Part shown: piece after piece, positions 42,220 through 62,934 of the stretch | How positions within the stretch are numbered: the first letter of the stretch is position 1 | How the letters are laid out: each line of letters begins with the position of its first letter | From: Leucobacter weissii | Lineage (GTDB): Bacteria; Actinomycetota; Actinomycetes; Actinomycetales; Microbacteriaceae | Direction: 5' to 3' | NCBI RefSeq assembly: GCF_017565745.1 | Contig: NZ_JAGDYM010000003.1 | Span: forward strand, 186,001 to 250,000 | DNA length: 64,000 nucleotides | Position numbers and translations under genes: made by a program | Notes under the pieces: generated by a model | What the model was told of the DNA's origin: nothing | What the model saw: only the letters and a program-made list of their open reading frames with translations | The model's database searches: none

Positions 42220-42926
42220 GGGGTCTCCTCTGCTTCTGCTTCTGCTTCGTCCGCTCCGGCCGGTGCGGACGCGTCCAGCCGGTCGGACACTTCCGCGGCC
42301 AGCGCTCGGAGCTCGCCCGGGGCGTCCGTGCCGTAGACGAGCACGGCCTCGTCGCCGACGCGGGTCTCGAGTCCGAAGATCATGTTCGCCTCGTCGGGGT
42401 TGCGCTCCGGATGGTCGTACACGGTCCAGTCGAGACCGCCGATCCGCTCCGCGCCGGTCGGGGTCTGGGCCTCGAGCTGCTGCGCGATCCAGGTGTCGTC
42501 GACCGGCGCCGCCGTCTCGGTGAAGGCCTGCACCACCGCGGCGTAGGCGCCGTTCGCCGTGGTGTAGCCGATGTACCAGTAGCGGATGTCGCCGCTCGGA
42601 GCCGAGCGCACCTCCGCCTGCTTGGCCAGCCAGCCCTCCGGCACCTCGGGCGCGACGAGCGTGCGCGAGGCGGACGCCGCCGCCGCGGATGCCGCCGCGG
42701 GGACGTCGACGGCGTGCCGGCTCCAGGTGTCCGTACCGCGCGGCACGACCAGCACGATCACGATCGAGAGCGCCACGGTGACGATGAGCGAGAAGACGAG
42801 GTTGTTGACGGTCTTGCGCTGCCGGTAGAGACGGCTGTTCTCGGCCTTGCGCGCGGCGGTCTCCGCGGGCGTCTCCGGGCGGCCGAGCTCGGCGACGACG
42901 ACCGGCGGTCTCTGCGTGCCTGTCAT
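42216..42926 (-). CDS. DUF4245 family membrane protein
   Basis: This 236-aa protein has a cytoplasmic N-terminus (1-40), one membrane helix (about 43-63, [20 protein letters not shown]) and an extracytoplasmic DUF4245 domain. The function is unknown. The family is restricted to actinobacteria and is often found next to fumarase and xseB, as here. ATG 42926 overlaps the xseB stop codon (ATGA). The C-terminal 15 residues are an Ala/Glu run coded by a short repetitive GAAGCA-type tract. Confidence 0.88.
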
Positions 42927-43201
42927 GCCGGGCGATCGCCCTCGGCCGTCGGATCCGCGGGCTCGGCTGTGCCGTCCGCGCTCCCGGCCCCGGTCCCGGC
43001 CCGGGCCGCCTCCAGCCGTTTGCGCGCGCCGAGCAGCCACTCCTCGCAGCGCGCCGCCAGGGCCTCGCCGCGCTCCCAGAGCTTCAGCGACTCCTCGAGG
43101 GTGGCGCCTCCCTGCTCCAAGCGGTTCACGACCTCGATCAGCTCGTCGCGCGCCTGCTCGTAGCCGAGGGACGCGGTGTCGATCGCAGCGGTTTCTGCCA
43201 T
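42923..43201 (-). CDS. xseB: Exodeoxyribonuclease VII small subunit
   Basis: This 92-aa helical protein is the small subunit of exonuclease VII, which degrades single-stranded DNA with XseA. Family features are [26 protein letters not shown] (about 10-35) and [16 protein letters not shown]. It heads an operon with DUF4245 and carbonic anhydrase, with a leaderless -10 box TAGGAT. Its partner xseA lies 18.5 kb away on the same strand instead of next to it. Confidence 0.92.
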
Positions 43202-43214: not shown

Positions 43215-43381
43215 CCCGCTGGCGCGGGAGCCGGCAGGGCGCCCGCGGGCGGGCGGGCGTTCACATCCCGTTCACCGGAGGAGGGATCCGTTCACCCGCA
43301 GGACAGATTGCGGCCATCTGCGATCGTCACGCTAGTGGGCGTTTGCCCCTCGCTCATGAACACCGGGAAAGAAGCGCCATC

Positions 43382-46300
43382 TTGAGTCTCACGCCGAACT
43401 CCGGCCCCGCACGAACCCTCTCCCGCGTCTCGCGCCGACTGGCGGTCCTCGTCACGGCGGCCGCGCTGTCCCTGACCGGCATCGCGACCGTTCCGTCCGT
43501 CGCCCACGCGGCGACCATCGACGGCCTGGACGGCACCGGCTCGAGCGAGGATCCGTTCGTCATCGACTCCGCGGAGCATCTCGACGCGGCGGCGGCGGCC
43601 GTCAACGACGGCTTCGAGGCGTACGGGTCGCTCCATTACCGCCTGGGCGCGGACATCGACTACCGCGGCGCGACCTTCGACACCTTCGCGAGATTCTCGG
43701 GGGTGTTCGACGGGAACGGCCACGCGATCGAGAACCTGACCCTGAAGCCCGGCTCTGCGGTGGACTCGTCGGATGCCAACGCGACCCAGACCGGGTTCGC
43801 GCAGATCCTCACCGGGACGATCACCGGACTGACCCTGCGGAACGTCGTCGCGGTCACCGCAGGGGGCACGTCCGCCCGCGTCCAGCAGGGGGCGTTCGCG
43901 GGGCGGATATCCGGTGCGACGATCACGCGATCCGCGTTGATCTCCGCGGAGGTGAAGACACCGGCGAACATCGAGAACTCGTCGGCGGTCGGCGGCCTGG
44001 TGGGCAAGTCGGTCGGAGCCGGCAACACGATCGCGGACAATCTGATCTCGGACGTCGAGGTGTTCAGCGACAAGCGGGTCGGCGGCGTGATCGGCTGGCA
44101 GAACTCCGCGGCGGACGTGTCGAACACTCTCATCGTCGACACCCGGGTCACGCAGAACGGCAGCTCGGGAGCAGGGGCGGCGTTCATCGCCGGGCATACG
44201 GTGTTCGCGGGAGCGCTGACCGGGAACGTGGTGATCTCCGGGAGGATCACGCAGTCCGCTCCCGCGAGCTACGGCTGGGTCCGATCCGGCAGCGGTGGCA
44301 CCTCCTCGGGCAATCTGGTCAATGCCGACAACAACATCGATCCCGCCGCGCCGGTCGGCCACACCTCGGCGCCCGACCCGAACCCCTTCGACGTCTTCTG
44401 GTCGGGCTCGTCCGCCCTCGACACCGCCGGCCAGTGGACGGTGGGCGACCTGGGGCAATACGCGACGCGCGAGGAGCTCGGCGCCGCGTCGACGTATACC
44501 GATCTGGGCTGGGATTTCGAGAACGGTTGGCGCTGGGACGCCGAAGCCGGGCACCCCGTTCCGCAGAGCGCACCGAGCATCACCACCGCGCTCACGAGCC
44601 TGACCATCGGCCTCGGCGACGTGCAGAGCGAGGCGCAGATCCTGAGCGCCCTGGGCGCATCGGCGGATCGCGGCACCCCGACGATCGACCTGACGGACGT
44701 CGACTTCCATACCGAGGGCGTGTACCGGACGGCTGTGCTGGTGACCGAGGGGCGCTTCACCAGCTCCGTGCCCGTCGAGATCACCGTCACCGCGCTCCCG
44801 TTCATCACGGTCGCCGAGACCTCGGTCTCGTACCGGGCGGGCAGCGCGCCCACCCCGGCAGAGGTGCTCGACGCGATCGGCGCCAGCACCGACCGCGGGG
44901 TGCTCGGCATCGACCTGAGCGGCGTCGACTTCGCCGTCCTCGGGAGCTACGAGGCGAAGGTCACGGCGACCGACGGCGCCGACGAGGCGAACCCGGTGAC
45001 GGTGACGATCAACGTGACCCCCCTTGCGGGCGCAGGCACCGCGGCGTCGCCGTACCGCATCGACTCGGTCGCCGACCTCGACGCGGCGGCCGCGTTCGTC
45101 AACGCCGACGCCGCCGGGAGCGGCGCGGCGGCCGCGCGCTACCGGCTGACCGAGGATCTCGACTACGGCGGCGCCGCTTTCGCCGGATTCACCCGCTTCT
45201 CCGGCGTGTTCGACGGCGCCGGCCACGCCGTCAGCGACCTCGAGATCGTCGCCGAGGGCAACCCCGGCGCGGGCTTCTTCGCCGAGCTCGTGGGCGCCGA
45301 GGTCACGGGGCTGACGCTCGCGGACGTCGACATCACCAACACGGTGGGCACCAGCCGCGCCGGGATCATCGCCGCCAGCGCGGCGAACTCGAAGATCGAG
45401 CGGAACACGATCCTCGGCGGTTCGGTCACGCTCGACTTCGCGACGGGCGCCAACAACGGCCAGGCCGCCGGCGTCGTCGCGAGCACGAGCAACGGCACGA
45501 GGATCTCGGACAACCTCGTCATGAACAGCACGGTGCGCGGCGCGAAATACGCCGCGGGCATCAGCGCCTACCCCCTGAACAACCAGGGGAACGCCGTCGT
45601 GAACAACCTCCTCGTCGACGTGACGGTCTCCGCGCGCGCGGCGGGCGCCGGGTCGACCGTCGGCCTGATCAACGCGCAGGGCGGCACCGGGGTCGACGTG
45701 TCGGGCAACGCGGTGATCCGGGGCGGGGTCGGCTCCGACACCGCGGCCGCAGTCGAGAACATCATCCCGGTGTCGCTGGAATCCACGGCCTCCACGGTCA
45801 ACCGCGTGAGCGCCGCCACCTCGATCACGCCCAAGGGCGCCCGGATCCCCACCGCCGCCCAGGTCGCCGAGCTCCCCGCCGCGAGCAGCGAGGAGACCTA
45901 TGCGGCGCTCACCTGGGGCTTCGACGCGGAGTCCGGGCCCTGGGCCTGGGACGACTCCCGGGCCCATCCCGTGCCGGCGGCATCCGTGTTCCCGAGCGCG
46001 CCCGTCTCCATCGACCTCGCCGGAGGCGTCGACGGCGGCGCCAACCCCGCCGCCCACGGCTACGGAGCCACCACCAGGCTGGTCGCCCCCACGCGCGAGC
46101 ACCACGTCTTCGCCGGGTGGACCGGCACCGGGATCACCGGCGCCGCGACCGAGGTGACCCTGCCCCGGTATCCGAGCGAGGCGCTCGCCTACACCGCGAC
46201 CTGGACCGCGATCGAGTTCACGATCGCCTACGATCTGGCCGGCGGGACAGCGCCCGACGGCAATCCGGGCTCCTATACCGTCGACTCGGAGCCGTTCTCG

Positions 46301-47446
46301 CTGAAGAACCCGACCCGCACGGGATACGCCTTCGCCGGGTGGACCGGCACCGGGATCACGGGCGCCTCCGACGCGGTGACCGTCGCCTCCGGCTCGACCG
46401 GCAACCGCGCCTACGCGGCGACCTGGACGCCCGTCGCCTACGGGATCGACTACGATCTCGCGGGCGGCGCGGCCGAGGGCGCGAACCCGCCCGCCTTCAC
46501 CGTCGAGACCTCGACGTTCGCGCTCACGAACCCGAGCCGCCCCGGATACTCTTTCGCCGGATGGACCGGCACGGGTCTCCCCGAGCCGACGAGGACGGTG
46601 ACCGTCCCGGTCGGATCGACCGGGGCGCGGAGCTTCACCGCCACCTGGTCGCCCGTGTCCTACGACCTCATCTACGAGCTGGCCGACGACGAGGACTTCG
46701 CCGAGGAGCCCCGCGGCTCGTACTCGATCGAGTCCGAGGCCTTCACGCTGCCCGCCCCGGTTCGCCCGGGCTACACCTTCACGGGATGGACCGGAACCGA
46801 TCTGACCGAGCCGACGCTCTCCGTCGGCATCCCGGCCGGATCGATCGGAGATCGCAGCTACGCGCCCACCTGGAGCCCGACCGAGTACTCGATCCGCTAC
46901 CAGCTGCGGGGCGGCACGATCGCCGCGGGCAACCCGAGCCGCTACACCGTCGAGTCGGCTCCGTTCGTCCTGCGGCAGCCCACGCGCCTCGACTACACCT
47001 TCGCCGGCTGGTCGGGGCTCGGCGTGACGCGCACCGCGCTGACCGTGCCCTCCGGCACCACGGGCGACCTCGCCTTCGCCGCGAACTGGAAGAAGCGGGC
47101 CAAGACCGTGTCGTCGCTCTCCGTCTCCTACGCCAAGAAGCCGAAGACGCAGCGGAACCACTCGGCCGTCTCCGTCACCGTGCGCACCGCCTCCGGCTAC
47201 ACTCCCGCCTCAGGCTCGCTGAGCGCCAAGGTGACGGGCAAGGTGAAGAAGAAGGTCGGCAAGAAGACCAGGTGGGTCCGGGTGAGCAAGACCGTCAGAG
47301 GCAAGCTCGCAGCGGGTCGGGGCACCGTCAAGATTCCCCGCGGCCTCCGGACGGGCAGCTACAAGCTGACCGTCGCCTATCACGGCAACTCGGTCTACAA
47401 GAAGGGCGCGGCCAAGGCGCTCACCCTTCGCGTCAAGAAGAGGTGA
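43382..47446 (+). CDS. Large secreted modular surface protein (beta-helix-like, Ig-like and InlB-type repeats)
   Basis: This 1354-aa protein has a Sec signal (residues 1-43, cleavage after AHA). Two GLUG/beta-helix-like regions follow (about 44-398 and 548-870), each opening with DGLDGTGSSEDPFVIDSAEHLDAAA-like sequence, separated by two 70-residue Ig-like repeats (about 399-546). Five Listeria-Bacteroides (InlB B-type) repeats with F-AGWTGTGI motifs occupy about 875-1240, and a Lys-rich Ig-like domain ends the protein. No LPXTG or membrane tail is present. I start at TTG 43382, which places a clean signal peptide first; TTG 43343 would add 13 residues. It is coupled to the next gene. An adhesive or wall-bound role is inferred from the modules. 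Confidence 0.82.
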   Translation: MSLTPNSGPARTLSRVSRRLAVLVTAAALSLTGIATVPSVAHAATIDGLDGTGSSEDPFVIDSAEHLDAAAAAVNDGFEAYGSLHYRLGADIDYRGATFDTFARFSGVFDGNGHAIENLTLKPGSAVDSSDANATQTGFAQILTGTITGLTLRNVVAVTAGGTSARVQQGAFAGRISGATITRSALISAEVKTPANIENSSAVGGLVGKSVGAGNTIADNLISDVEVFSDKRVGGVIGWQNSAADVSNTLIVDTRVTQNGSSGAGAAFIAGHTVFAGALTGNVVISGRITQSAPASYGWVRSGSGGTSSGNLVNADNNIDPAAPVGHTSAPDPNPFDVFWSGSSALDTAGQWTVGDLGQYATREELGAASTYTDLGWDFENGWRWDAEAGHPVPQSAPSITTALTSLTIGLGDVQSEAQILSALGASADRGTPTIDLTDVDFHTEGVYRTAVLVTEGRFTSSVPVEITVTALPFITVAETSVSYRAGSAPTPAEVLDAIGASTDRGVLGIDLSGVDFAVLGSYEAKVTATDGADEANPVTVTINVTPLAGAGTAASPYRIDSVADLDAAAAFVNADAAGSGAAAARYRLTEDLDYGGAAFAGFTRFSGVFDGAGHAVSDLEIVAEGNPGAGFFAELVGAEVTGLTLADVDITNTVGTSRAGIIAASAANSKIERNTILGGSVTLDFATGANNGQAAGVVASTSNGTRISDNLVMNSTVRGAKYAAGISAYPLNNQGNAVVNNLLVDVTVSARAAGAGSTVGLINAQGGTGVDVSGNAVIRGGVGSDTAAAVENIIPVSLESTASTVNRVSAATSITPKGARIPTAAQVAELPAASSEETYAALTWGFDAESGPWAWDDSRAHPVPAASVFPSAPVSIDLAGGVDGGANPAAHGYGATTRLVAPTREHHVFAGWTGTGITGAATEVTLPRYPSEALAYTATWTAIEFTIAYDLAGGTAPDGNPGSYTVDSEPFSLKNPTRTGYAFAGWTGTGITGASDAVTVASGSTGNRAYAATWTPVAYGIDYDLAGGAAEGANPPAFTVETSTFALTNPSRPGYSFAGWTGTGLPEPTRTVTVPVGSTGARSFTATWSPVSYDLIYELADDEDFAEEPRGSYSIESEAFTLPAPVRPGYTFTGWTGTDLTEPTLSVGIPAGSIGDRSYAPTWSPTEYSIRYQLRGGTIAAGNPSRYTVESAPFVLRQPTRLDYTFAGWSGLGVTRTALTVPSGTTGDLAFAANWKKRAKTVSSLSVSYAKKPKTQRNHSAVSVTVRTASGYTPASGSLSAKVTGKVKKKVGKKTRWVRVSKTVRGKLAAGRGTVKIPRGLRTGSYKLTVAYHGNSVYKKGAAKALTLRVKKR

Positions 47447-47451
47447 TCCCG

Positions 47452-50400
47452 ATGCTCACACGTGCTCGCAGCCTCGCCCTGGTCGTCGTGGCGGCCCTGT
47501 TCGGCACGATCCTGGTGGCGGCGAGTCCCGCGGCGGCGGCGACCATCCCCGGGCTCCCCGGCACCGGCTCCGCCGGCGATCCGCTCGTGATCGACTCGGC
47601 CGAGGATCTCGATGCCGCCGCGCAGTCGGTGAACGCGGAGCCCGGCGCCTACGGCTCGCTGCACTACCGCCTGGACGCCGACATCGACTACCGGGGCAGG
47701 ACCTTCACCCCGTTCGCCGCGTTCTCGGGCACCTTCGACGGCAACGGGCACGCCGTCAGCAATCTCGCGATGGCGGCGACGGACACCCGCGTCGGGTTCT
47801 TCGTGAGCGTCAACGGCGGGACGGTCAAGGACCTCACCCTCCGCTCGGTGCAGGTCACCCACACCTCCGAACTGGAGACGCCGGGCCGCCTGTACGGCGC
47901 CATCCTGGTCGAGACGGCCAACAACGCGGTGATCGAGGGCAACTCCCTCATCGACTCGAGCTTCACCGCGCTCAGCGAGGCGACCAACTCCTACGCGGCG
48001 GGCCTGGTGCGCGGGGCGACCGGCACCACGGTGGTGAGGAACAACTACCTCAACGGCGTCACCGTGAACGCGCCGACCAAGTACGTCGGCGCGGTCGCGT
48101 TCGTGGCGACCGGGACGGCCTCGATCCTCAACAACCTCGTGCTGAACACGCGCGTCACCCAGGGCGCGCAGGGCGCCGCCGGCCAGGCCGCGTTCATCGT
48201 GACGACGTGCACGACCTCGACGGTCACGGTCAAGGGCAATGCGGTGCATTCGGGGTGGCTCTACCAGAACGCCTCGAACAACACCTACTACTACGGATGG
48301 ATCACCGCGCAGGGGCAGAACTGCCGGCACTCCGACAACCTCACCAACTCCAACAACAACCGCAACTTCAACGCGGAGGGCCACGTCGAGCAGCCCGTGC
48401 GCACCCGCGGAACGGGATCGTACGACCTCGCCTGGGACAGCGACTTCGAGCTGGTCTCCTCGTCCCTGCTGACCTGGAACCACGGCGTCGACGGCGCACC
48501 GACCACCAGGGAGCAGCTGGAGACGCAGTCCACCTACGAGGGCATCGGCTGGGACTTCGCCGTGGGCTCGGGGAAGTGGCGCTGGGAGCCGGCGATGCAG
48601 CATCCCGTCCCCGCGCGTGCGAGCATCGCCCCCTTCATGCGGGCGGGCATCCCCGGTGCCGGCACGGCGGCGTCGCCGTACCAGATCGACTCGCCCACCG
48701 ATCTCGAGGCGATGCGCGCGGCCATCAGCTCGAACTCCGACGCCTACGGCGGCGCCAACTACCGGTTGACGGGGGACATCGATCTCGCGGGCGCCGAGTT
48801 CGTCGGCTTCGACGCCTTCTCCGGCGTGATCGACGGCAACGGGCATGTCGTCTCCGACCTCGTGTACGCGCCGAGCGAGACCTCCGACGACCTCGCGTTC
48901 ATCCGGGATCTCAGGGGAGTGGTGCGCGGTCTCACCCTCGCCGATGTCTCGCTGGCCCCCGTCGCGGGCACCGGGAGCGTGGCGGGCGTCGCGATCCGCG
49001 CCGAGGGCACGCCGGCCAAGCCGGCGACCATCACCCGGACGCAGCTCCGCGACGCGGCGCTCATCGCGCCGGGTGCGGCGCGCGGCGCCGGGCTCGTGGC
49101 GGAGAGCGGCGGGCGGGGCGTCGTCAGCGACAACGACGTCGACGTCGAGATCGAGGTGGACGGACTCGCCGCGGGCGCGGTCGGCCGTGCGGCCGATGAG
49201 ACGGCGGTCCGCAACAACCTGATCCGGAGCGCGAGTCTCCGGGGGGCGGCGAGCGCGGCCGTCGTGGGCGAGCGCGTCGGCTCGGCGGTCGCGGTGGCCG
49301 GCAACGTCGTGGTCGGCGACGACGACGGCCTGGACGAGCACCACAAGACCACGTACACCGGTCTGGGGTGGGACTTCGTCGACGCCTGGATGTGGGATCC
49401 CGTCGCTCAGCTCCCGCGGATCAAGTACGTGGCCCCCGAGGAGAAGCCGAACCGGATCACCGCGACCTTCCACGGCGATCCCGAGACCCGTCGCGCGTTC
49501 ACCTGGTACCAGAACGTCGACATGGTCGAGCCCGGCGCCATCGTGAGCACCGATCCGAGCTTCCCCGAGGACGCGACCGCGACGGTGACCGCGACGGCGG
49601 AGGTCAGCAACGAGGGCGAGGCGTTCTATCGCGCGATCGCCACCGGTCTCACCCCGGGGCTGACCTACCACTATCGCGTGGGCGACGCCTTCACCGGCAA
49701 GTGGAGCGAGACCGGCACGTTCGAGACCGCCGACGGGGGCGACGACTTCACCTTCATCAACGTGACCGACACCCAGGCGCGCGGCGGTGCGAGCGAGGCC
49801 GTGGTGTCGGCCAACACCATCTCCGAGGCGCTGAAGACCGCGCCGGACGCCGAGTTCATCGTCCACGGCGGCGACGTCGTGCAGACGAGCGAGGAGGAGA
49901 ACGACTGGATCGAGCTCTTCGGCTACGCGCAGGAGAGCCTGCTCGCGACCACCGTCGCGCCCGTGTCGGGCAACCACGATGCGGGCAAGGACGAGTTCAC
50001 CCAGCACTTCACGCTCGACGCCGCCGGCGACCAGGACACCTCGACCGGTGTCTACTACTCCTACGACTACAACGACGCGCACTTCGTGATGCTGAACACG
50101 AACGAGGGGCGCGACGGCCACAACGCCTACGACATGGGCGACCTCGACTACGAGCCCATCAGCGACGAGCAGCTGGCGTGGATCGAGAGGGACGTCGAGC
50201 AGGCCCGCGAGCGCGGGGCGAAGTGGATCATCCTCACGACGCACAAGGGCCCCTACACCGCCGGCGCGCACGCGGCGGACCCCGACATCCTCTCGATGCG
50301 CGACCGCCTCGTCCCGCTCATCGACGAGCTCGACATCGACCTCGTGCTGCAGGGCCACGACCACTACTGGACGCGAACCCAGGCGCTGCGAGCCGATCCC

Positions 50401-53400
50401 GATTCGCCGGTGAAGGCGAAGACCGTGGACTCCGACGTGATCACCGAGGTCGTCTCGGGCATCCGTGTCGACTACAAGGTCGACCAGGAGGGCGCGGTCT
50501 ACGTCACCCCGGGGACCGCCGGCTCGAAGCACTACGGCCAGCTGCAGGGCATCGCCGAGGGCGACGCTCCGTTCGGCAACGAGGACTATCTCGATCTCTT
50601 CGACCGGCTCGGCGGCGGCGTGCGGTTCAGCAGCAACACCCACGAGTCGTTCCTCGAGGTCGCGGTGAGCGACGGGCGGCTCACCGTCAACCGGCACGAG
50701 GTGGGCGCCAACGACAAAGCCACCTTCGCCGAGGGCTTCGGCATCGATCGGGAGATCACGCCGGTGCAGCGTCAGATCGGCGAGCTCCCGGAGGCCTCAC
50801 GGGTCGCCCTCTCCGACGAACCGGCCGTCGCGGCTGCGCGCGCCGCCGTGAAGCGGCTCACCAAGGTGCAGCGCGCGCACCTGACGAATCTCGAGCGACT
50901 CCGGGAGGCCGAGGACGCGCTGCGCGAACTGCGCGGCACGACGTCGTCCGACGGGTCCAAGGTCGCCTGGGCGGATCCCGGCGCGAGCGAGCGCCAGCCG
51001 CTCACCGTGACCAACGACCAGCGCCGAGACCTCACCGACGTGCCCGTGCGCCTCGTCATCGAGGACACCCCCGACGTGTCCGCGGAGACCTTCTCGCTGA
51101 GCACGTCGCGCAGCGTTCCGGTCTCGTTCGAGATCGAGAGCTGGGCGCCCGGCGGCACGTCGGTCGTGTGGGCGAAGCTCGAAGAGCTCGAGAAGCGGTC
51201 GTCGCAACTCCTCTGGGCCTATTTCGGGGGCTCGGGCGCGCCCGAGAACGATCCCCGAGACGTCTGGAGCAACCAGTTCGAACTGGTCGAGCACTTCGCG
51301 AACAGCGTCGAGCCGGGAGGTGCTCTCGTCGATTCGACCGGTCGGGTCTCTGGCACGCTCGTCGGATCCGAACTCGTGTCGAGCACCGGCGCGGGGGCGG
51401 GCCTCGAGGGCGGAGGATCGGTGCGCTTCGAGGCTTCGCGCCTGCAGTACGGCGGCAACATCGGCAAGAACAACCGTGAGTTCACGCTCTCCGCGGTGCT
51501 CAGCCTGACCCCCGAGGACATCGCTGCCATCGGCAGCGGCACGGCCTCGCTCGTCGCGCGCAAGGCCCCCGGCGACGAGGATCCGACGCTGCGGCTCGGC
51601 ATCCGCAAGGCCGACGGCCTGGTGGACACCCTGACGCCCTACGGCAGTGCGACCTCGCCCCTCGCGAAGGACGGCGAGCCGCACCTGCTGACGATGACCT
51701 TCGACGGCCTGACCTATGCGGTGTTCCTCGACGGCGTCGAGGTGCACTCCGCCATGGGCGAGGGGCGCATCTTCCCGAACCTCCCCGGCGTGCCGCTCAC
51801 CATCGGCGACGGCGAGGTGGATCCCGAGGATCCGAACCGCCTCGTCTCGCCCTTCTCGGGCGTCGTCGACGAGGTGTGGATCGCGAGCAACGAGTTCATC
51901 CCGGAGTTCGACGCCTTCCGCGCCGACAACTACTTCGGCGACGCGGTGACCCCGGGCAAGCGCGAGAAGCAGGCGGACGACGGCCTGCTGCTCACCCTCG
52001 GCGCGCCCGGGAACGGCGCGTCGGTCGAGGCCGGCAACGTCGAGGTGTTCGGGGCGGTGACGAAGCGCTCGGTGCTCGAAGCGAAGATCGACGGCGAGTC
52101 GGTGTTCTCGCAGCGGGTCGACTCGGGCACCTTCGCCGTGCACGTGCCCGTGGTGCAGACCGGCGAGGAGGTCGAGGTGATCTTCACCGCGACCTCGACG
52201 GCGGACGAGGGCCTCGTCTCCGAACCGGAGACGCTGACGCTGCAGGTCGCCGACACGACGGCGCCGGCGGTCCCGCTGACGAGCGCCGAGAAGCCGGCGA
52301 ACCAGGCGCTCAAGCTGCAGGTCACGCCGCAGACCGACGTTCCCGAACGGGTGCGCGCGCAGTTCTACGCGAACGACTCGGTCGCGCTCGACGCCGGGAA
52401 CGCGGTGGTTCGGGCGGGATCGACGAAGGATCGCGTGCCCGATGCGATCACCCCGACCAGCGGAACCATCACCTCGGACCTCACGCCCGAGACGGTCGGA
52501 GCGGACGAGAACCCCTATCAGATCTACCGGATCGCCCTGACGGAGGAGCAGGCCGCCCAGGGGGAGTGGCACTTCTCGTGGCGGGGCACCGCCGATACGC
52601 GCACCGTGTCGGCCTGGGTCTGGGACACGGCCGCGAACGAGTGGGCGCTCAAGGAGTCCGACGCGAGCCCCGAAGGCGGAACGGTGAACCTCGACGTGCG
52701 GGCCGGCGCGGCGGACCGCGCCGTCGACGAGAACCGCACCCTCACGGTGCTGGTCTGGCGCGGCCTCACCGAGGAGCCGTGGGCGCAGGGCGTCGACTTC
52801 GACAACCGGGTGCCCTCCGCCGACGACTACGACTGGTCCTTCAACCACGTGGGCGACACGCAGCTCTACACCGAGGCCACGCCCTGGACGATGACCGAGC
52901 AGTTCGAGTACATCCGCGACAACGCCGAGGCGAAGAAGACGGCGATGGTCATCCAGGCCGGCGACTGGGTCAACCGCGAGGAGTACGAGGACGAGTGGCA
53001 GTGGAAATCCGCCGAGCCCTCCGCGCGGATCCTCGAGCAGGCGAAGCTCCCCTTCGCGATCTCCTGGGGGAACCACGACTACAACGAGCGCTACAACGGG
53101 CGCCAGCTGCTGCCGAAGTACTTCCCGATGGAGCGATTCGAGAACAGCCTCGAGGGATCGCCGTGGACGTTCGGGGGCAGCAACGACATCGACAACTACT
53201 ACTACACCGGTGAGATCTCAGGTGCGAAGATCCTCTGGCTGCAGGTGGGCTTCTGGTCGGCGGAGCACGACGATACGCCCGGGATCAAGTGGGCGAAGAG
53301 CGTGATCGAGGCGCATCCGGAGCACACGGTGATCCTCTCCACCCACCACCACCTGTGGGCGCGCGACGTGCAGAACCCGTACTCGAACCCCCGGGTCAAC

Positions 53401-54942
53401 ACCGAGCTCATCGATCCGTACCCGAACGTCAAGCTCGTGCTGAGCGGGCACCAGTCGGGCACCTTCGTGTCGTCGCGGATCAACGATCACGGCGTTCGCA
53501 CCTACGGGATCCTCTCCGATTATCAGACGCGGGCCTGGGGCGGCCACGGCTACCTGAAGAACCTGAGCGTCGATGCCGAGAACGGCCTGATCCACGTGAA
53601 CACCTACAGCCCCTGGCTGCAGAAGACCACGTCCGAGGGGCGCTGGAGCCAGCCGATCCCGCTCACGGCCGAGGAGGGGTACCACGGCGAGAACTCCGAG
53701 AACTACGTCATCGAGCTCGACCTCGGCGGAGAGCAGACCCGCACGCTGGACACCTCGCGGGTGACGTTCGCCTCGGGTGAGCCCGAGAAGCTGGGGGATC
53801 CGGTCCCGCTTGTCGGCGACGAGCGCGGCGAGGTCGAGTTCGCCCCCGAGCTCGACGTGGATCAGGAGTGGTACGCGGTCGTCACGGACGCGGCGGGCCA
53901 TGCCACCGCGTCGAAGACCAGCGTGATCCGACGGGTGGCCTCGCACAGCATCGGCTACGACCTCGCGGGCGGGACCGTGGAGGGGGCGGCGAACCCCGAG
54001 GCCTACTCGGCCGAGGACGACGCCATCGCGCTGACGAACCCGAAGCGCTCGGGGTACACCTTCGTCGGCTGGACGGGAACGGGCCTGTCGTCGCCGAGCA
54101 CCGACGTGACGATCCCGGCCGGATCCAGCGGCGATCGCAGCTACACGGCGCACTGGAAGCTGACCGAGTACCCGCTGGAGTACGACCTCGGGGGCGGGTA
54201 TCTCACCTCGGCCAATCCCAAGAGCTACACCATCGAGTCCGAGGCCATCGCGCTGAGCAAGCCGCGCCGCACGGGCTACGCCTTCGCGGGATGGACCGGC
54301 ACCGGGCTCGACGAGCCGACGGCGTCGGTCGAGATCGCCGCCGGCTCCACGGGCGCGCGCAGCTACGCCGCCACCTGGACCCCCGTCGGATTCCCGATCG
54401 TCTACCGGCTCGGCGGCGGCACGGCGACGGGCAACCCGACGAGCTACACCGTGAGATCCGACGGGTTCACGCTGGTGAACCCGACCCGCCCGGGCTACAC
54501 CTTCGCCGGATGGACGGGCACCGGGCTGTCGAAGCGGACCGTGAAGGTCACCGTGCCGAGCGGCACGCGCGGTGCGCTCACCTACACGGCGAACTGGACC
54601 CGCAAGGCGAAGGCCAAACCGGGTGTCTCGGTGAAGATCAACTCGGCGGGCAAGAAGCGGCCGTCGAGTGCGACCGTGACCGTGAAGACCGCGGGCGGGT
54701 ACGCGCAGCCGAGCGGTCGGGTGACGCTCAAGGCGACCGGCAAGATCGCCAAGAAGGTCAAGGGCAAGAAGCGCAGCGTGACGGTCACGCGCACGGCTTC
54801 GGCGTCGCTCAGGGCGGGCAAGGCGACGGTGCGGCTGCCGAAGGGCCTCGCGAAGGGCAGATGGAAGGTGACGGCGAGCTACGCCGGGAACGATCAGTAC
54901 CGCTCCGGCTCCTCCCGGGCCGTGACGCTCCGGATCCGCTAG
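47452..54942 (+). CDS. Giant secreted protein with two metallophosphoesterase domains, LamG-like and InlB-type repeats
   Basis: This 2496-aa exported protein has a signal peptide (1-29). Two beta-helix-like regions (about 30-395 and 397-655) are followed by an Fn3-like purple-acid-phosphatase N-domain (663-760). Metallophosphoesterase 1 (about 765-1090) has D773/Q775, D808, GNHD 840-843, H931 and GHDH 968-971. A helical stretch (1115-1161), DUF2341/LamG-like domains (1171-1500) and Ig-like segments follow. Metallophosphoesterase 2 (about 1797-2110) has D1802/Q1804, D1838, GNHD 1873-1876, H1965 and G1999-H-Q-S. Three InlB-type repeats (2163-2383) and a Lys-rich Ig-like end close it. GAGGTGA five nt before the ATG overlaps the preceding stop. 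Extracellular phosphomonoester or nucleotide hydrolysis is likely; the substrate is unknown. Confidence 0.85.
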   Translation: MLTRARSLALVVVAALFGTILVAASPAAAATIPGLPGTGSAGDPLVIDSAEDLDAAAQSVNAEPGAYGSLHYRLDADIDYRGRTFTPFAAFSGTFDGNGHAVSNLAMAATDTRVGFFVSVNGGTVKDLTLRSVQVTHTSELETPGRLYGAILVETANNAVIEGNSLIDSSFTALSEATNSYAAGLVRGATGTTVVRNNYLNGVTVNAPTKYVGAVAFVATGTASILNNLVLNTRVTQGAQGAAGQAAFIVTTCTTSTVTVKGNAVHSGWLYQNASNNTYYYGWITAQGQNCRHSDNLTNSNNNRNFNAEGHVEQPVRTRGTGSYDLAWDSDFELVSSSLLTWNHGVDGAPTTREQLETQSTYEGIGWDFAVGSGKWRWEPAMQHPVPARASIAPFMRAGIPGAGTAASPYQIDSPTDLEAMRAAISSNSDAYGGANYRLTGDIDLAGAEFVGFDAFSGVIDGNGHVVSDLVYAPSETSDDLAFIRDLRGVVRGLTLADVSLAPVAGTGSVAGVAIRAEGTPAKPATITRTQLRDAALIAPGAARGAGLVAESGGRGVVSDNDVDVEIEVDGLAAGAVGRAADETAVRNNLIRSASLRGAASAAVVGERVGSAVAVAGNVVVGDDDGLDEHHKTTYTGLGWDFVDAWMWDPVAQLPRIKYVAPEEKPNRITATFHGDPETRRAFTWYQNVDMVEPGAIVSTDPSFPEDATATVTATAEVSNEGEAFYRAIATGLTPGLTYHYRVGDAFTGKWSETGTFETADGGDDFTFINVTDTQARGGASEAVVSANTISEALKTAPDAEFIVHGGDVVQTSEEENDWIELFGYAQESLLATTVAPVSGNHDAGKDEFTQHFTLDAAGDQDTSTGVYYSYDYNDAHFVMLNTNEGRDGHNAYDMGDLDYEPISDEQLAWIERDVEQARERGAKWIILTTHKGPYTAGAHAADPDILSMRDRLVPLIDELDIDLVLQGHDHYWTRTQALRADPDSPVKAKTVDSDVITEVVSGIRVDYKVDQEGAVYVTPGTAGSKHYGQLQGIAEGDAPFGNEDYLDLFDRLGGGVRFSSNTHESFLEVAVSDGRLTVNRHEVGANDKATFAEGFGIDREITPVQRQIGELPEASRVALSDEPAVAAARAAVKRLTKVQRAHLTNLERLREAEDALRELRGTTSSDGSKVAWADPGASERQPLTVTNDQRRDLTDVPVRLVIEDTPDVSAETFSLSTSRSVPVSFEIESWAPGGTSVVWAKLEELEKRSSQLLWAYFGGSGAPENDPRDVWSNQFELVEHFANSVEPGGALVDSTGRVSGTLVGSELVSSTGAGAGLEGGGSVRFEASRLQYGGNIGKNNREFTLSAVLSLTPEDIAAIGSGTASLVARKAPGDEDPTLRLGIRKADGLVDTLTPYGSATSPLAKDGEPHLLTMTFDGLTYAVFLDGVEVHSAMGEGRIFPNLPGVPLTIGDGEVDPEDPNRLVSPFSGVVDEVWIASNEFIPEFDAFRADNYFGDAVTPGKREKQADDGLLLTLGAPGNGASVEAGNVEVFGAVTKRSVLEAKIDGESVFSQRVDSGTFAVHVPVVQTGEEVEVIFTATSTADEGLVSEPETLTLQVADTTAPAVPLTSAEKPANQALKLQVTPQTDVPERVRAQFYANDSVALDAGNAVVRAGSTKDRVPDAITPTSGTITSDLTPETVGADENPYQIYRIALTEEQAAQGEWHFSWRGTADTRTVSAWVWDTAANEWALKESDASPEGGTVNLDVRAGAADRAVDENRTLTVLVWRGLTEEPWAQGVDFDNRVPSADDYDWSFNHVGDTQLYTEATPWTMTEQFEYIRDNAEAKKTAMVIQAGDWVNREEYEDEWQWKSAEPSARILEQAKLPFAISWGNHDYNERYNGRQLLPKYFPMERFENSLEGSPWTFGGSNDIDNYYYTGEISGAKILWLQVGFWSAEHDDTPGIKWAKSVIEAHPEHTVILSTHHHLWARDVQNPYSNPRVNTELIDPYPNVKLVLSGHQSGTFVSSRINDHGVRTYGILSDYQTRAWGGHGYLKNLSVDAENGLIHVNTYSPWLQKTTSEGRWSQPIPLTAEEGYHGENSENYVIELDLGGEQTRTLDTSRVTFASGEPEKLGDPVPLVGDERGEVEFAPELDVDQEWYAVVTDAAGHATASKTSVIRRVASHSIGYDLAGGTVEGAANPEAYSAEDDAIALTNPKRSGYTFVGWTGTGLSSPSTDVTIPAGSSGDRSYTAHWKLTEYPLEYDLGGGYLTSANPKSYTIESEAIALSKPRRTGYAFAGWTGTGLDEPTASVEIAAGSTGARSYAATWTPVGFPIVYRLGGGTATGNPTSYTVRSDGFTLVNPTRPGYTFAGWTGTGLSKRTVKVTVPSGTRGALTYTANWTRKAKAKPGVSVKINSAGKKRPSSATVTVKTAGGYAQPSGRVTLKATGKIAKKVKGKKRSVTVTRTASASLRAGKATVRLPKGLAKGRWKVTASYAGNDQYRSGSSRAVTLRIR

Positions 54943-54943
54943 A

Positions 54944-54994
54944 GCCGCCCCTCGCGGCGTCAGCGCCTCCGCCGCTGACGCCGCGAGGGGCGGC
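54944..54994 (+). terminator. Perfect 22-bp hairpin closing the surface-protein operon
   Basis: Arms 54944-54965 and 54973-54994 are fully complementary around a 7-nt loop and begin one base after the stop codon. There is no U-tract. This is the strongest stem in the window. Confidence 0.8.
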
Positions 54995-61707: not shown

Positions 61708-62934
61708 TCAGGCGGGGCCCGTCGAGGCCGCTCCGATCCGCCCGCCTGCCAGGGTGATGCGGAGCTCTGAACCGGCCGGAGCGTCAGCCGGATCGCGCAG
61801 CACGGCCCCCGCCTCCGCGCCGTGCAGCTGCGCGATCGCGTAGCCGCGCTCGAGCGTCGCGCGCGGCGACAGCGCGCCGAGGCGGGCGCGGCCGTGCGAG
61901 AGCTCCCGCTCGCGATCCGCCACCGCGCGCTCGGCGAGCTCGGTGCCGCGGGCGATCCAGCGCACGAGCTCCTCGGCCCGCTCGTCGACGATGCGCTCGG
62001 GGCGCGACATCGCCGGCCTGGCCCTGAGCTGCCCCACGCGCTCCGTCTCGTGCGCGAGCAGCTGGCCGATCCGTCCGCTCATCCGGCTGCGGGCGCCGTC
62101 GAGGGCGGCCAGTTCCTCTCCCACGTCGGGCACGATGCGCTTCGCCGCGTCCGTCGGGGTCGAGGCTCGCAGGTCGGCGACCTCGTCGAGCAGCGGTCGG
62201 TCGGCCTCGTGCCCGATCGCGCTCACGATCGGGGTCGCGGCCGCGGCGGCGGCGCGCAGCAGCGCCTCGTCGCTGAACGGCAGGAGGTTCTGGAAGTCCC
62301 CGCCCCCGCGCGCGATCACGATCACGTCCACCTCGGGGTCCGCGTCGAGTGCGGCGATCCCCGCCGTCACCTCCGACGCCGCGCGGTCGCCCTGCACCGC
62401 CGCGTAGTGCACGCGGAAGCGCACTCCCGGCCAGCGCAGCGTCGCATTGCGGATCACGTCTTTCTCCGCGTCGCTGTCCCGGCCCGTGACCAGCCCGATG
62501 CGCTGGGGCAGGAACGGCAGACGGCGCTTCCGCCCGGCGTCGAACAGGCCCTCTCCGGCCAGCCGTCGCCGCAGCTCCTCGAGGCGCTGCAGCAGCTCGC
62601 CGAGCCCGACGTGCGAGAGGTCGAACACCTGCACGGTGAGGGTGCCGCCCTTCACCCAGAAGTTGGGTTTGACGAGCGCGATGACGCGGTCTCCCTGGGC
62701 GAACTCGCTGCTCAGCCGCTGCGCGACGGATCGCCACACGGTGAAGCTGACCGTGGCATCGCGCTCCAGATCCCTCAGCTTGCCGTAGACGTGCCCGCCG
62801 CGCAGCTGCCACTGGGTGATCTCGCCCTCGACCCAGACCTGGCCCAGCCGGTCGACCCACTCCGCGATCTTGTCGCTCATCACGCCGACCGGCCATGGCG
62901 CGTCCCGCGTCGCGGGGTCGGTGCGCTCAGCCAT
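61708..62934 (-). CDS. xseA: Exodeoxyribonuclease VII large subunit
   Basis: This 408-aa catalytic subunit has an N-terminal OB fold (residues about 15-110, [22 protein letters not shown]), the XseA catalytic domain with [11 protein letters not shown] (about 148), [17 protein letters not shown] (about 200) and [23 protein letters not shown] (about 235), then a coiled-coil region (about 265-365). It has a leaderless -10 box TAGGGT and faces away from ispH. XseB is not downstream as usual but 18.5 kb away, so subunit synthesis is no longer coupled. Confidence 0.95.

Follow-up and report, generated by a model that had tools for sequence, protein, structure and literature searches.

A candidate Pho-regulated gene pair of Leucobacter weissii encoding a predicted surface protein with two unequal phosphoesterase domains and its non-catalytic partner

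Introduction

The window, i.e., the whole stretch of 64,000 nt of Leucobacter weissii DNA that was analyzed, contains two adjacent giant genes, A and B, which had been singled out in a sequence-only reading. They raise the question of which role two very long proteins of similar build can have when only one of them carries catalytic domains, and whether the two phosphoesterase domains of that protein are equivalent.

Gene Organization and Modules of A and B

The open reading frames A (1354 aa) and B (2496 aa) were confirmed, and only 5 nt lie between them. The start of A is uncertain; besides the TTG at 43382 a second in-frame TTG is present at 43343. Export of both proteins is predicted from N-termini that resemble signal peptides. 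The following features were located:

43382..47446, + strand: gene A, 1354 aa, predicted exported non-catalytic partner (TTG start, uncertain)
43532..44560, + strand: A, first beta-helix-like module (aa 51-393; module comparison)
44810..45016, + strand: A, InlK_D3 Ig-like domain (aa 477-545; E 1.2e-10)
45029..45976, + strand: A, second module (about aa 550-865; module comparison)
46019..47071, + strand: A, InlB-type (List_Bact) repeats, 5 stretches, limits approximate
47099..47443, + strand: A, basic Ig-like (Big_3_5-like) tail, net charge +30, pI 11.9
47452..54942, + strand: gene B, 2496 aa, predicted exported double phosphoesterase
47551..49419, + strand: B, two N-terminal beta-helix-like modules (aa 34-386 and 402-656; module comparison)
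49447..49728, + strand: B, Pur_ac_phosph_N (aa 666-759; E 4.4e-13)
49753..50364, + strand: B, phosphoesterase 1 (aa 768-971), all five ligand motifs (DTQ, GDVV, GNHD, H, GHDH)
51118..51297, + strand: B, DUF2341-like stretch (aa 1223-1282), below the cut-off here, above it in L034 (Microbacterium)
51646..51891, + strand: B, LamG_3-like stretch
52843..53454, + strand: B, phosphoesterase 2, with DTQ, GDWV, GNHD and H kept; motif V is GHQS, the last ligand His is lost
53947..54561, + strand: B, InlB-type repeats, 3 stretches, limits approximate
54595..54939, + strand: B, basic Ig-like tail, net charge +29, pI 12.0
54944..54994, + strand: long GC hairpin directly 3' of the B stop (-57.8 kcal/mol, z -6.8), without T run; possible operon end

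The 5-nt gap together with the strong hairpin directly downstream of B argues for an A-B operon, and the two genes are probably co-transcribed. At the locus L033 the hairpin after B was not significant, as 17 of 200 shuffles folded equally well. Consensus scans detected neither a sigma-70 promoter nor a T-run terminator 3' of B; they yielded two terminator-like sites, both within B and fewer than in shuffled sequences. The downstream MarR gene was rejected as an operon member, because the strong hairpin lies in between, and at L031 to L034 no MarR match was found at E<=1.

As the first reading had claimed, A and B have end parts in common: the identity is 43% for the N-terminal module, 48% for a part of the second module, and 50% for the repeat and C-terminal part. 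In a search of the genome at E<=1e-3, no A-like places were found besides B. The Pfam analysis also bore out that the catalytic domains are confined to B and that A has none, and the model TIGR02543 verified the InlB-type repeats in five stretches of A and three of B. The proposed beta-helix character of the N-termini fared less well, as it gained only sub-threshold matches, to NosD (0.002) and M26_N (0.05); it is plausible from the sequence. The claimed DUF2341 domain stayed below the cut-off in B of the window (16.7 bits versus 23.4) and exceeded it in one orthologue (26.1 bits), and the LamG-like domain just failed (27.0 versus 27.6 bits). Big_3_5 was below its cut-off in A of the Nocardioides orthologue L032. 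A module tree was used to look for module exchange between A and B. L033 was the sole locus at which A and B grouped together (85/86), and no general exchange is claimed.

The Two Phosphoesterase Domains of B

The presence of two calcineurin-type domains in B could be verified. The Pfam model Metallophos (PF00149) matched two stretches above its curated cut-off (together 2e-28 and 100.6 bits, best at residues 768-971), and the second stretch, near residue 1800, alone reached 52.6 bits versus a cut-off of 21.5. The starts of the two domains are about 1030 residues apart, in agreement with the spacing of about 1000 residues first noted.

Calcineurin-like phosphoesterases have the metal-ligand motif set D, GD, GNH, H, and GHxH. 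A motif table of all nine double proteins that were found, the window protein included, revealed that domain 1 is complete in each of them (D-x-Q, GD, GNHD, H, GHDH). In 9/9 proteins domain 2 has kept motifs I-IV as well as the first His of motif V, yet in the same nine GHxH has become GHx[SAT], and the last metal-ligand His is absent. Domain 2 of B thus lacks the complete motif set. Because one metal-ligand His is missing from domain 2 in all nine proteins, the two phosphoesterase domains are not equal, and equal catalysis by both was rejected, although the loss does not prove inactivity. The lost residue is presumably the same ligand as the histidine by which the enzymes MPPED1 and MPPED2 differ. 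According to PMC10547211, MPPED1 and MPPED2 differ by one histidine and both rat enzymes have been reported to be phosphodiesterases. Since both are reported to act as phosphodiesterases despite the difference, the loss in domain 2 is no proof that the domain is inactive.

The last His was followed on a tree of second domains, from which five short rows (under 240 aa; four domain 1 pieces and L013) had been left out. Among its 35 sequences the His was absent from 18 and kept in 17; for the 26 sequences that do not stem from double proteins, which comprise only those relatives whose loci were fetched, the numbers were 9 and 17. At least three changes of state are needed on this tree. Independent of whether the last His is kept, the family of second domains has a nearly invariant Tyr-Gln after motif V, which is Tyr-His in L029.

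A profile search of the PDB with domain 1 matched the purple acid phosphatase 6gja at 8.9e-11. PDB searches with the full B sequence and with a domain 2 profile had no match, and domain 2 alone yielded one chance match (0.57). The ColabFold models were poor, with mean pLDDT values of 54.6 and 41.2. The Foldseek search was made with the domain 2 model only. The top match of this low-confidence model was Lmo2642 (2xmo; E 6.2e-07, 20% identity), a metallophosphoesterase. Nine matches were found at E<=0.001, namely two Lmo2642 chains, five named purple acid phosphatases, 9a6c, and 2cv9, all with low TM-scores of 0.21-0.30 of the query. Phosphoesterase 2 may thus have a fold similar to Lmo2642, from which it differs by the absence of the last His of motif V.

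A PHO Box Upstream of the Gene Pair

The PHO boxes of Streptomyces are described in PMC4415409 and PMC6988585 as direct repeats of 11-nt units with GTTCACC. A site that agrees with this definition was found upstream of A:

43259..43280, + strand: PHO box of two 11-nt units, GTTCACATCCC and GTTCACCGGAG, first base 123 nt before A

A third GTTCAC is located at 43290-43295, and all repeats lie between A and the divergent xseB. The genome was scanned with the pattern GTTCAC-N5-GTTCAC and, as a control, with the reversed pattern. In the 3.37-Mb genome, GTTCACATCCCGTTCAC at 43259-43275 alone matched exactly, and 14 sites were found when one mismatch was allowed, versus none for the control.

Two of the other 13 sites, each with one mismatch, precede genes that are typical of phosphate metabolism. 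The first is 167 nt upstream of phoU, and a pair of histidine kinase and response regulator genes diverges from phoU; the kinase ORF covers this site when read at its longest, while an inner ATG leaves it between the genes. The second is located 110 nt before a gene for a choice_anch_I 5'-nucleotidase; the genes after it encode a PstS-like protein, two permeases, and an ATPase. For the remaining 11 sites no downstream Pho gene was demonstrated, and the first genes scanned after three of them encode SecF-like, TrwC-like, and LTD/LRR proteins.

At all four loci with the A-B pair, a site with at most one mismatch was present within 400 nt of A, with the start of A in the relatives chosen by us. 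In the sense orientation it was found at three loci, at -123 (window), -118 (L. soli), and -128, and in L032 the box is on the reverse strand, 174-201 nt before A. Because the box of the window had itself suggested the pattern, only the other three loci test it. Outside these stretches, no site was found in 632,280 strand-positions of 14 sequences, for which the genome rate predicts about one, and about 1% of 5000 random 400-mers, from a pool that included the boxes themselves, contained a site. The L. soli genome has 11 sites versus 3 in the control; one is the site before A, and another is identical to the phoU site.

The five double loci that have B without A were different. Within 400 nt they had no site with at most one mismatch, the best having 3 to 5 mismatches, and none of the pattern sites listed for the genomes G171, G653, G662, and G617 is near B. 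A link of the enzyme core to the Pho regulon is therefore not general. The neighbors of A-B that were scanned include no phosphate uptake gene.

The 5'-nucleotidase gene mentioned above (L105, G000:C26:14500-19500) and L113 are of interest in their own right. Here a gene preceded by a PHO-box-like site and followed by pst-type genes encodes a choice_anch_I metallophosphoesterase/5'-nucleotidase of 1265 aa that ends in a basic Ig tail. Judged from these features, the L105 protein is probably a second Pho-controlled surface esterase of L. weissii. A further observation concerns GTTCACGCCTGGTTCAC, which recurs about every 116 nt in G662:C1:770106-770587 and other places and looks like a repeat array rather than PHO boxes.

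Distribution of the Double Core and of the Partner Gene

Homologues were collected with one scan of 84,980 species genomes, which used the core and detects only close relatives, and with whole-genome searches on overlapping samples, in which only the best two or three candidates per genome were scored. The species-genome scan revealed four loci, in Leucobacter soli, two Nocardioides (one a MAG), and Microbacterium sp. Gd 4-13, with core identities to the window of 81-82%, 64-68%, and 47-49%, respectively. Full-length cores were found in 2 of 149 relatives (window genome and L. soli, G046), in 2 of 398 genomes of the family (window genome and G171), and in 4 of 394 genomes of the class (window genome, G653, G662, and G617). 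Among 396 genomes of the phylum (E<=1e-60) the window genome alone had a full core, and in G1161 only the first domain was matched. The eight double proteins besides that of the window thus belong to Leucobacter, Nocardioides, Microbacterium, G171, and three members of another actinobacterial family. The double-phosphoesterase family is real, rare, and scattered.

The second domains of the nine double proteins formed one clade (100/98). Within the tree, the two Leucobacter proteins stood beside Nocardioides and not beside Microbacterium and G171, which belong to the same family as Leucobacter, and this grouping speaks for transfer between families.

An A-type gene lies directly upstream of B at four of the nine double loci, two of Leucobacter and two of Nocardioides, and is absent from the other five (Microbacterium L034 and L058-L061); at L034 a helicase-like frame, recognized by eye, is found upstream of B instead. 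Because five of nine double proteins have no neighboring A, B does not need A. Among 299 genomes searched at E<=1e-30, A was matched in two, both of which carry B, and in none without B. The length of A varies with its modules from about 850 to 1940 aa, whereas the core of B is constant.

Two frames deserve mention. In the Nocardioides MAG (L032, 8171-15696) the B frame breaks off and the InlB repeats continue in another frame. A 3095-aa frame of another actinobacterial genome (L063, G1161:C5:66000-85000) has a domain-1-like phosphoesterase, an InlB repeat stretch like that of B, and a hydrophobic stretch with a basic end.

Charge and Ends of the Proteins

The proteins of the A-B loci have acidic bodies, with net charges of -21 to -176. 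In contrast, seven of these eight proteins have a net charge of +20 to +30 in their last 115 residues; the eighth, B of L032, breaks off in its frame and has an end charge of +10. The ends of A and B lack an LPXTG-like motif with hydrophobic stretch and basic end, and the window genome encodes sortases (four matches). The basic tails may hold A and B on an anionic polymer, as their composition suggests. Two of the five proteins from B-only loci end in LPTTG (L034, Microbacterium) or IAATG (L058), followed by a hydrophobic stretch and an Arg run, i.e., in sortase-like ends, and the other three stop soon after domain 2 without a tail. The PHO-box 5'-nucleotidase of the window genome also has a basic Ig-like tail (+24).

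Comparison with Known Systems

The first reading did not know this double arrangement with beta-helix and InlB repeats. Precedents with other accessory domains exist, and a double surface phosphoesterase as such is not unprecedented. YfkN of Bacillus subtilis is a large surface protein with duplicated metallophosphoesterase-nucleotidase (MP-NT) units (PMC13229355, PMC10454023), and EecP of Enterococcus faecalis is a long, LPxTG-anchored surface protein with two such units, of which the first is reported to be the main catalyst and the second to contribute little (PMC13229355). YfkN is likened to B by description only. B has its duplicated units and, by prediction, its surface location, but lacks its nucleotidase part, and a YfkN-type nucleotidase was rejected since that C-terminal domain is absent. 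EecP resembles B as one long protein with two metallophosphoesterase units, inferred for B to be at the surface as well, and the dominance of its first unit parallels the inequality proposed for B. It differs by its LPxTG anchor and the nucleotidase part of each unit, in place of which B has a basic tail and a partner gene; Pur_ac_phosph_N, the DUF2341-like and LamG-like stretches, and the InlB repeats are specific to B.

The likeness to EecP leads to the first alternative, namely that B acts mainly as an ecto-nucleotidase, clearing nucleotides or nucleotide signals from outside the cell, and that phosphate supply is secondary. The unequal pair of units in EecP agrees with it, as do the low-confidence fold match of domain 2 to Lmo2642 and the weak match of domain 1 to the model of SpdA, a 2',3'-cyclic nucleotide phosphodiesterase (39.4 bits, cut-off 400). 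However, the model 5_nucleotid_C (PF02872), which was found in the L105 5'-nucleotidase, had no match in B at E<=0.1, in contrast to the nucleotidase part reported for both EecP units, and the PHO box points to phosphate supply, so that this role appears unlikely.

Two further assignments were rejected. Purple acid phosphatases (6gja, 1kbp) resemble B in that Pur_ac_phosph_N is followed by Metallophos. They have the metal-binding Tyr of GDxxY, and this position is Gln in four and Glu in five of the nine double proteins (GDVVQ, GDVVE or GDIVE). B is not a purple acid phosphatase because the Tyr ligand is absent; it also differs in that a single chain carries two catalytic domains. Like A-B, internalins and other surface proteins with InlB repeats have List_Bact repeats and the InlK_D3-type Ig domain. 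In contrast to internalins, A and B have neither an LPXTG-like end nor, at E<=0.1, any LRR match, and the absence of LRR excludes the pair from this group.

Proposed Function and Alternative Explanations

The explanation that we favor, and consider fairly probable from the sequence features, is a Pho-regulated surface phosphoesterase with a non-catalytic partner that serves phosphate scavenging, with domain 1 as the main catalyst. A-B would be a two-gene operon of the phosphate-starvation (Pho) regulon, and at low phosphate phosphorylated PhoP would bind to the box upstream of A. Both proteins would be exported, and their very basic Ig-like tails would stick to anionic wall polymers at the cell surface, replacing the sortase-like end of the Microbacterium and G171 relatives. 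Phosphoesterase 1, with its full two-metal ligand set behind a PAP-type N-domain, would cut phosphate mono- or diesters outside the cell, and the phosphate would be taken up via the Pst system. Phosphoesterase 2, with one ligand lost, could be a weaker or specialized esterase or a binding domain for a phosphorylated polymer, and A could add similar surface modules without catalysis as a co-displayed partner. The surface phosphatase with a non-catalytic partner that was first proposed is thus retained in part: the conservation of the pair at four loci and the PHO box speak for it, while the inequality of the two domains, the absence of A at five of nine loci, and the precedents YfkN and EecP call for changes to it.

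A bolder version is a Pho-induced "capture and cut" scaffold of two proteins whose acidic bodies and basic tails attach to one another and to the wall. In it, the metal-site-degenerate domain 2 would capture phosphorylated polymer for cleavage by domain 1, and the cassette would be passed between actinobacterial families; we regard this version as speculative and rather doubtful. The substrate could also be the cell's own wall. A-B would then cut phosphodiester wall polymers under phosphate starvation for reuse of the phosphate, with the LamG, InlB, and Ig modules holding the enzyme on the wall. The wall-facing module types, tails able to bind anionic polymer, and the PHO box would all fit, but sequence evidence for wall substrates is absent, and we consider this explanation quite improbable. 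It is very unlikely that A and B serve chiefly as adhesins or matrix proteins in which the phosphoesterase domains are minor passengers. Repeats and binding-type modules do make up most of their length, and the length of A changes with its module content. Yet conservation is highest in the catalytic core (49-82% identity), divergence is faster in the first N-module of B (35-74%) and in the tails (36-51% among B proteins), and the domain 1 ligands are kept in all nine double proteins.

On the favored explanation, two giant ORFs that had no explanation form a phosphate-starvation system open to testing, and double-domain surface phosphoesterases come in a second design besides that of YfkN and EecP. 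New here are the PHO box at A-B, the His loss in domain 2, the basic tails versus sortase-like ends, and the position between xseA and xseB. The regular loss of a single ligand makes domain 2 a test case for the role of a paired degenerate phosphoesterase, and the swap of basic tail and sortase-like end among relatives is a case for non-covalent surface retention in Actinobacteria. For the two-gene architecture, no paper was recognized by title or start of abstract among the matches listed from the open-licence literature, and the search of other genomes for the full architecture yielded the eight further double cores and, in all, the four A-B loci.

Genomic Neighborhood and Insertion Site

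The exonuclease VII genes xseB (42923-43201) and xseA (61708-62934) are 18.5 kb apart in the window. Between them lie A, B, the MarR gene, a histone-deacetylase-like gene, and an ABC transporter, probably of the sugar type. Five other genomes of the genus (L. soli G046, G049, G011, G012, and G007) have xseA, xseB, and DUF4245 side by side, and the xseA and xseB matches are separated by about 50 to 1400 nt. The split in the window versus the adjoining genes in five relatives suggests that the A-B pair arrived or moved recently. In L. soli A-B is located on a different contig from the xse genes, and the ABC transporter and deacetylase-like genes are on the other side of xseA; the xse region has undergone further rearrangement besides that of A-B. 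Several genomes of the genus that lack the pair, e.g., L080, encode, some kb from DUF4245, a separate phosphoesterase that resembles domain 1 and lies within a frame of about 900-1000 aa.
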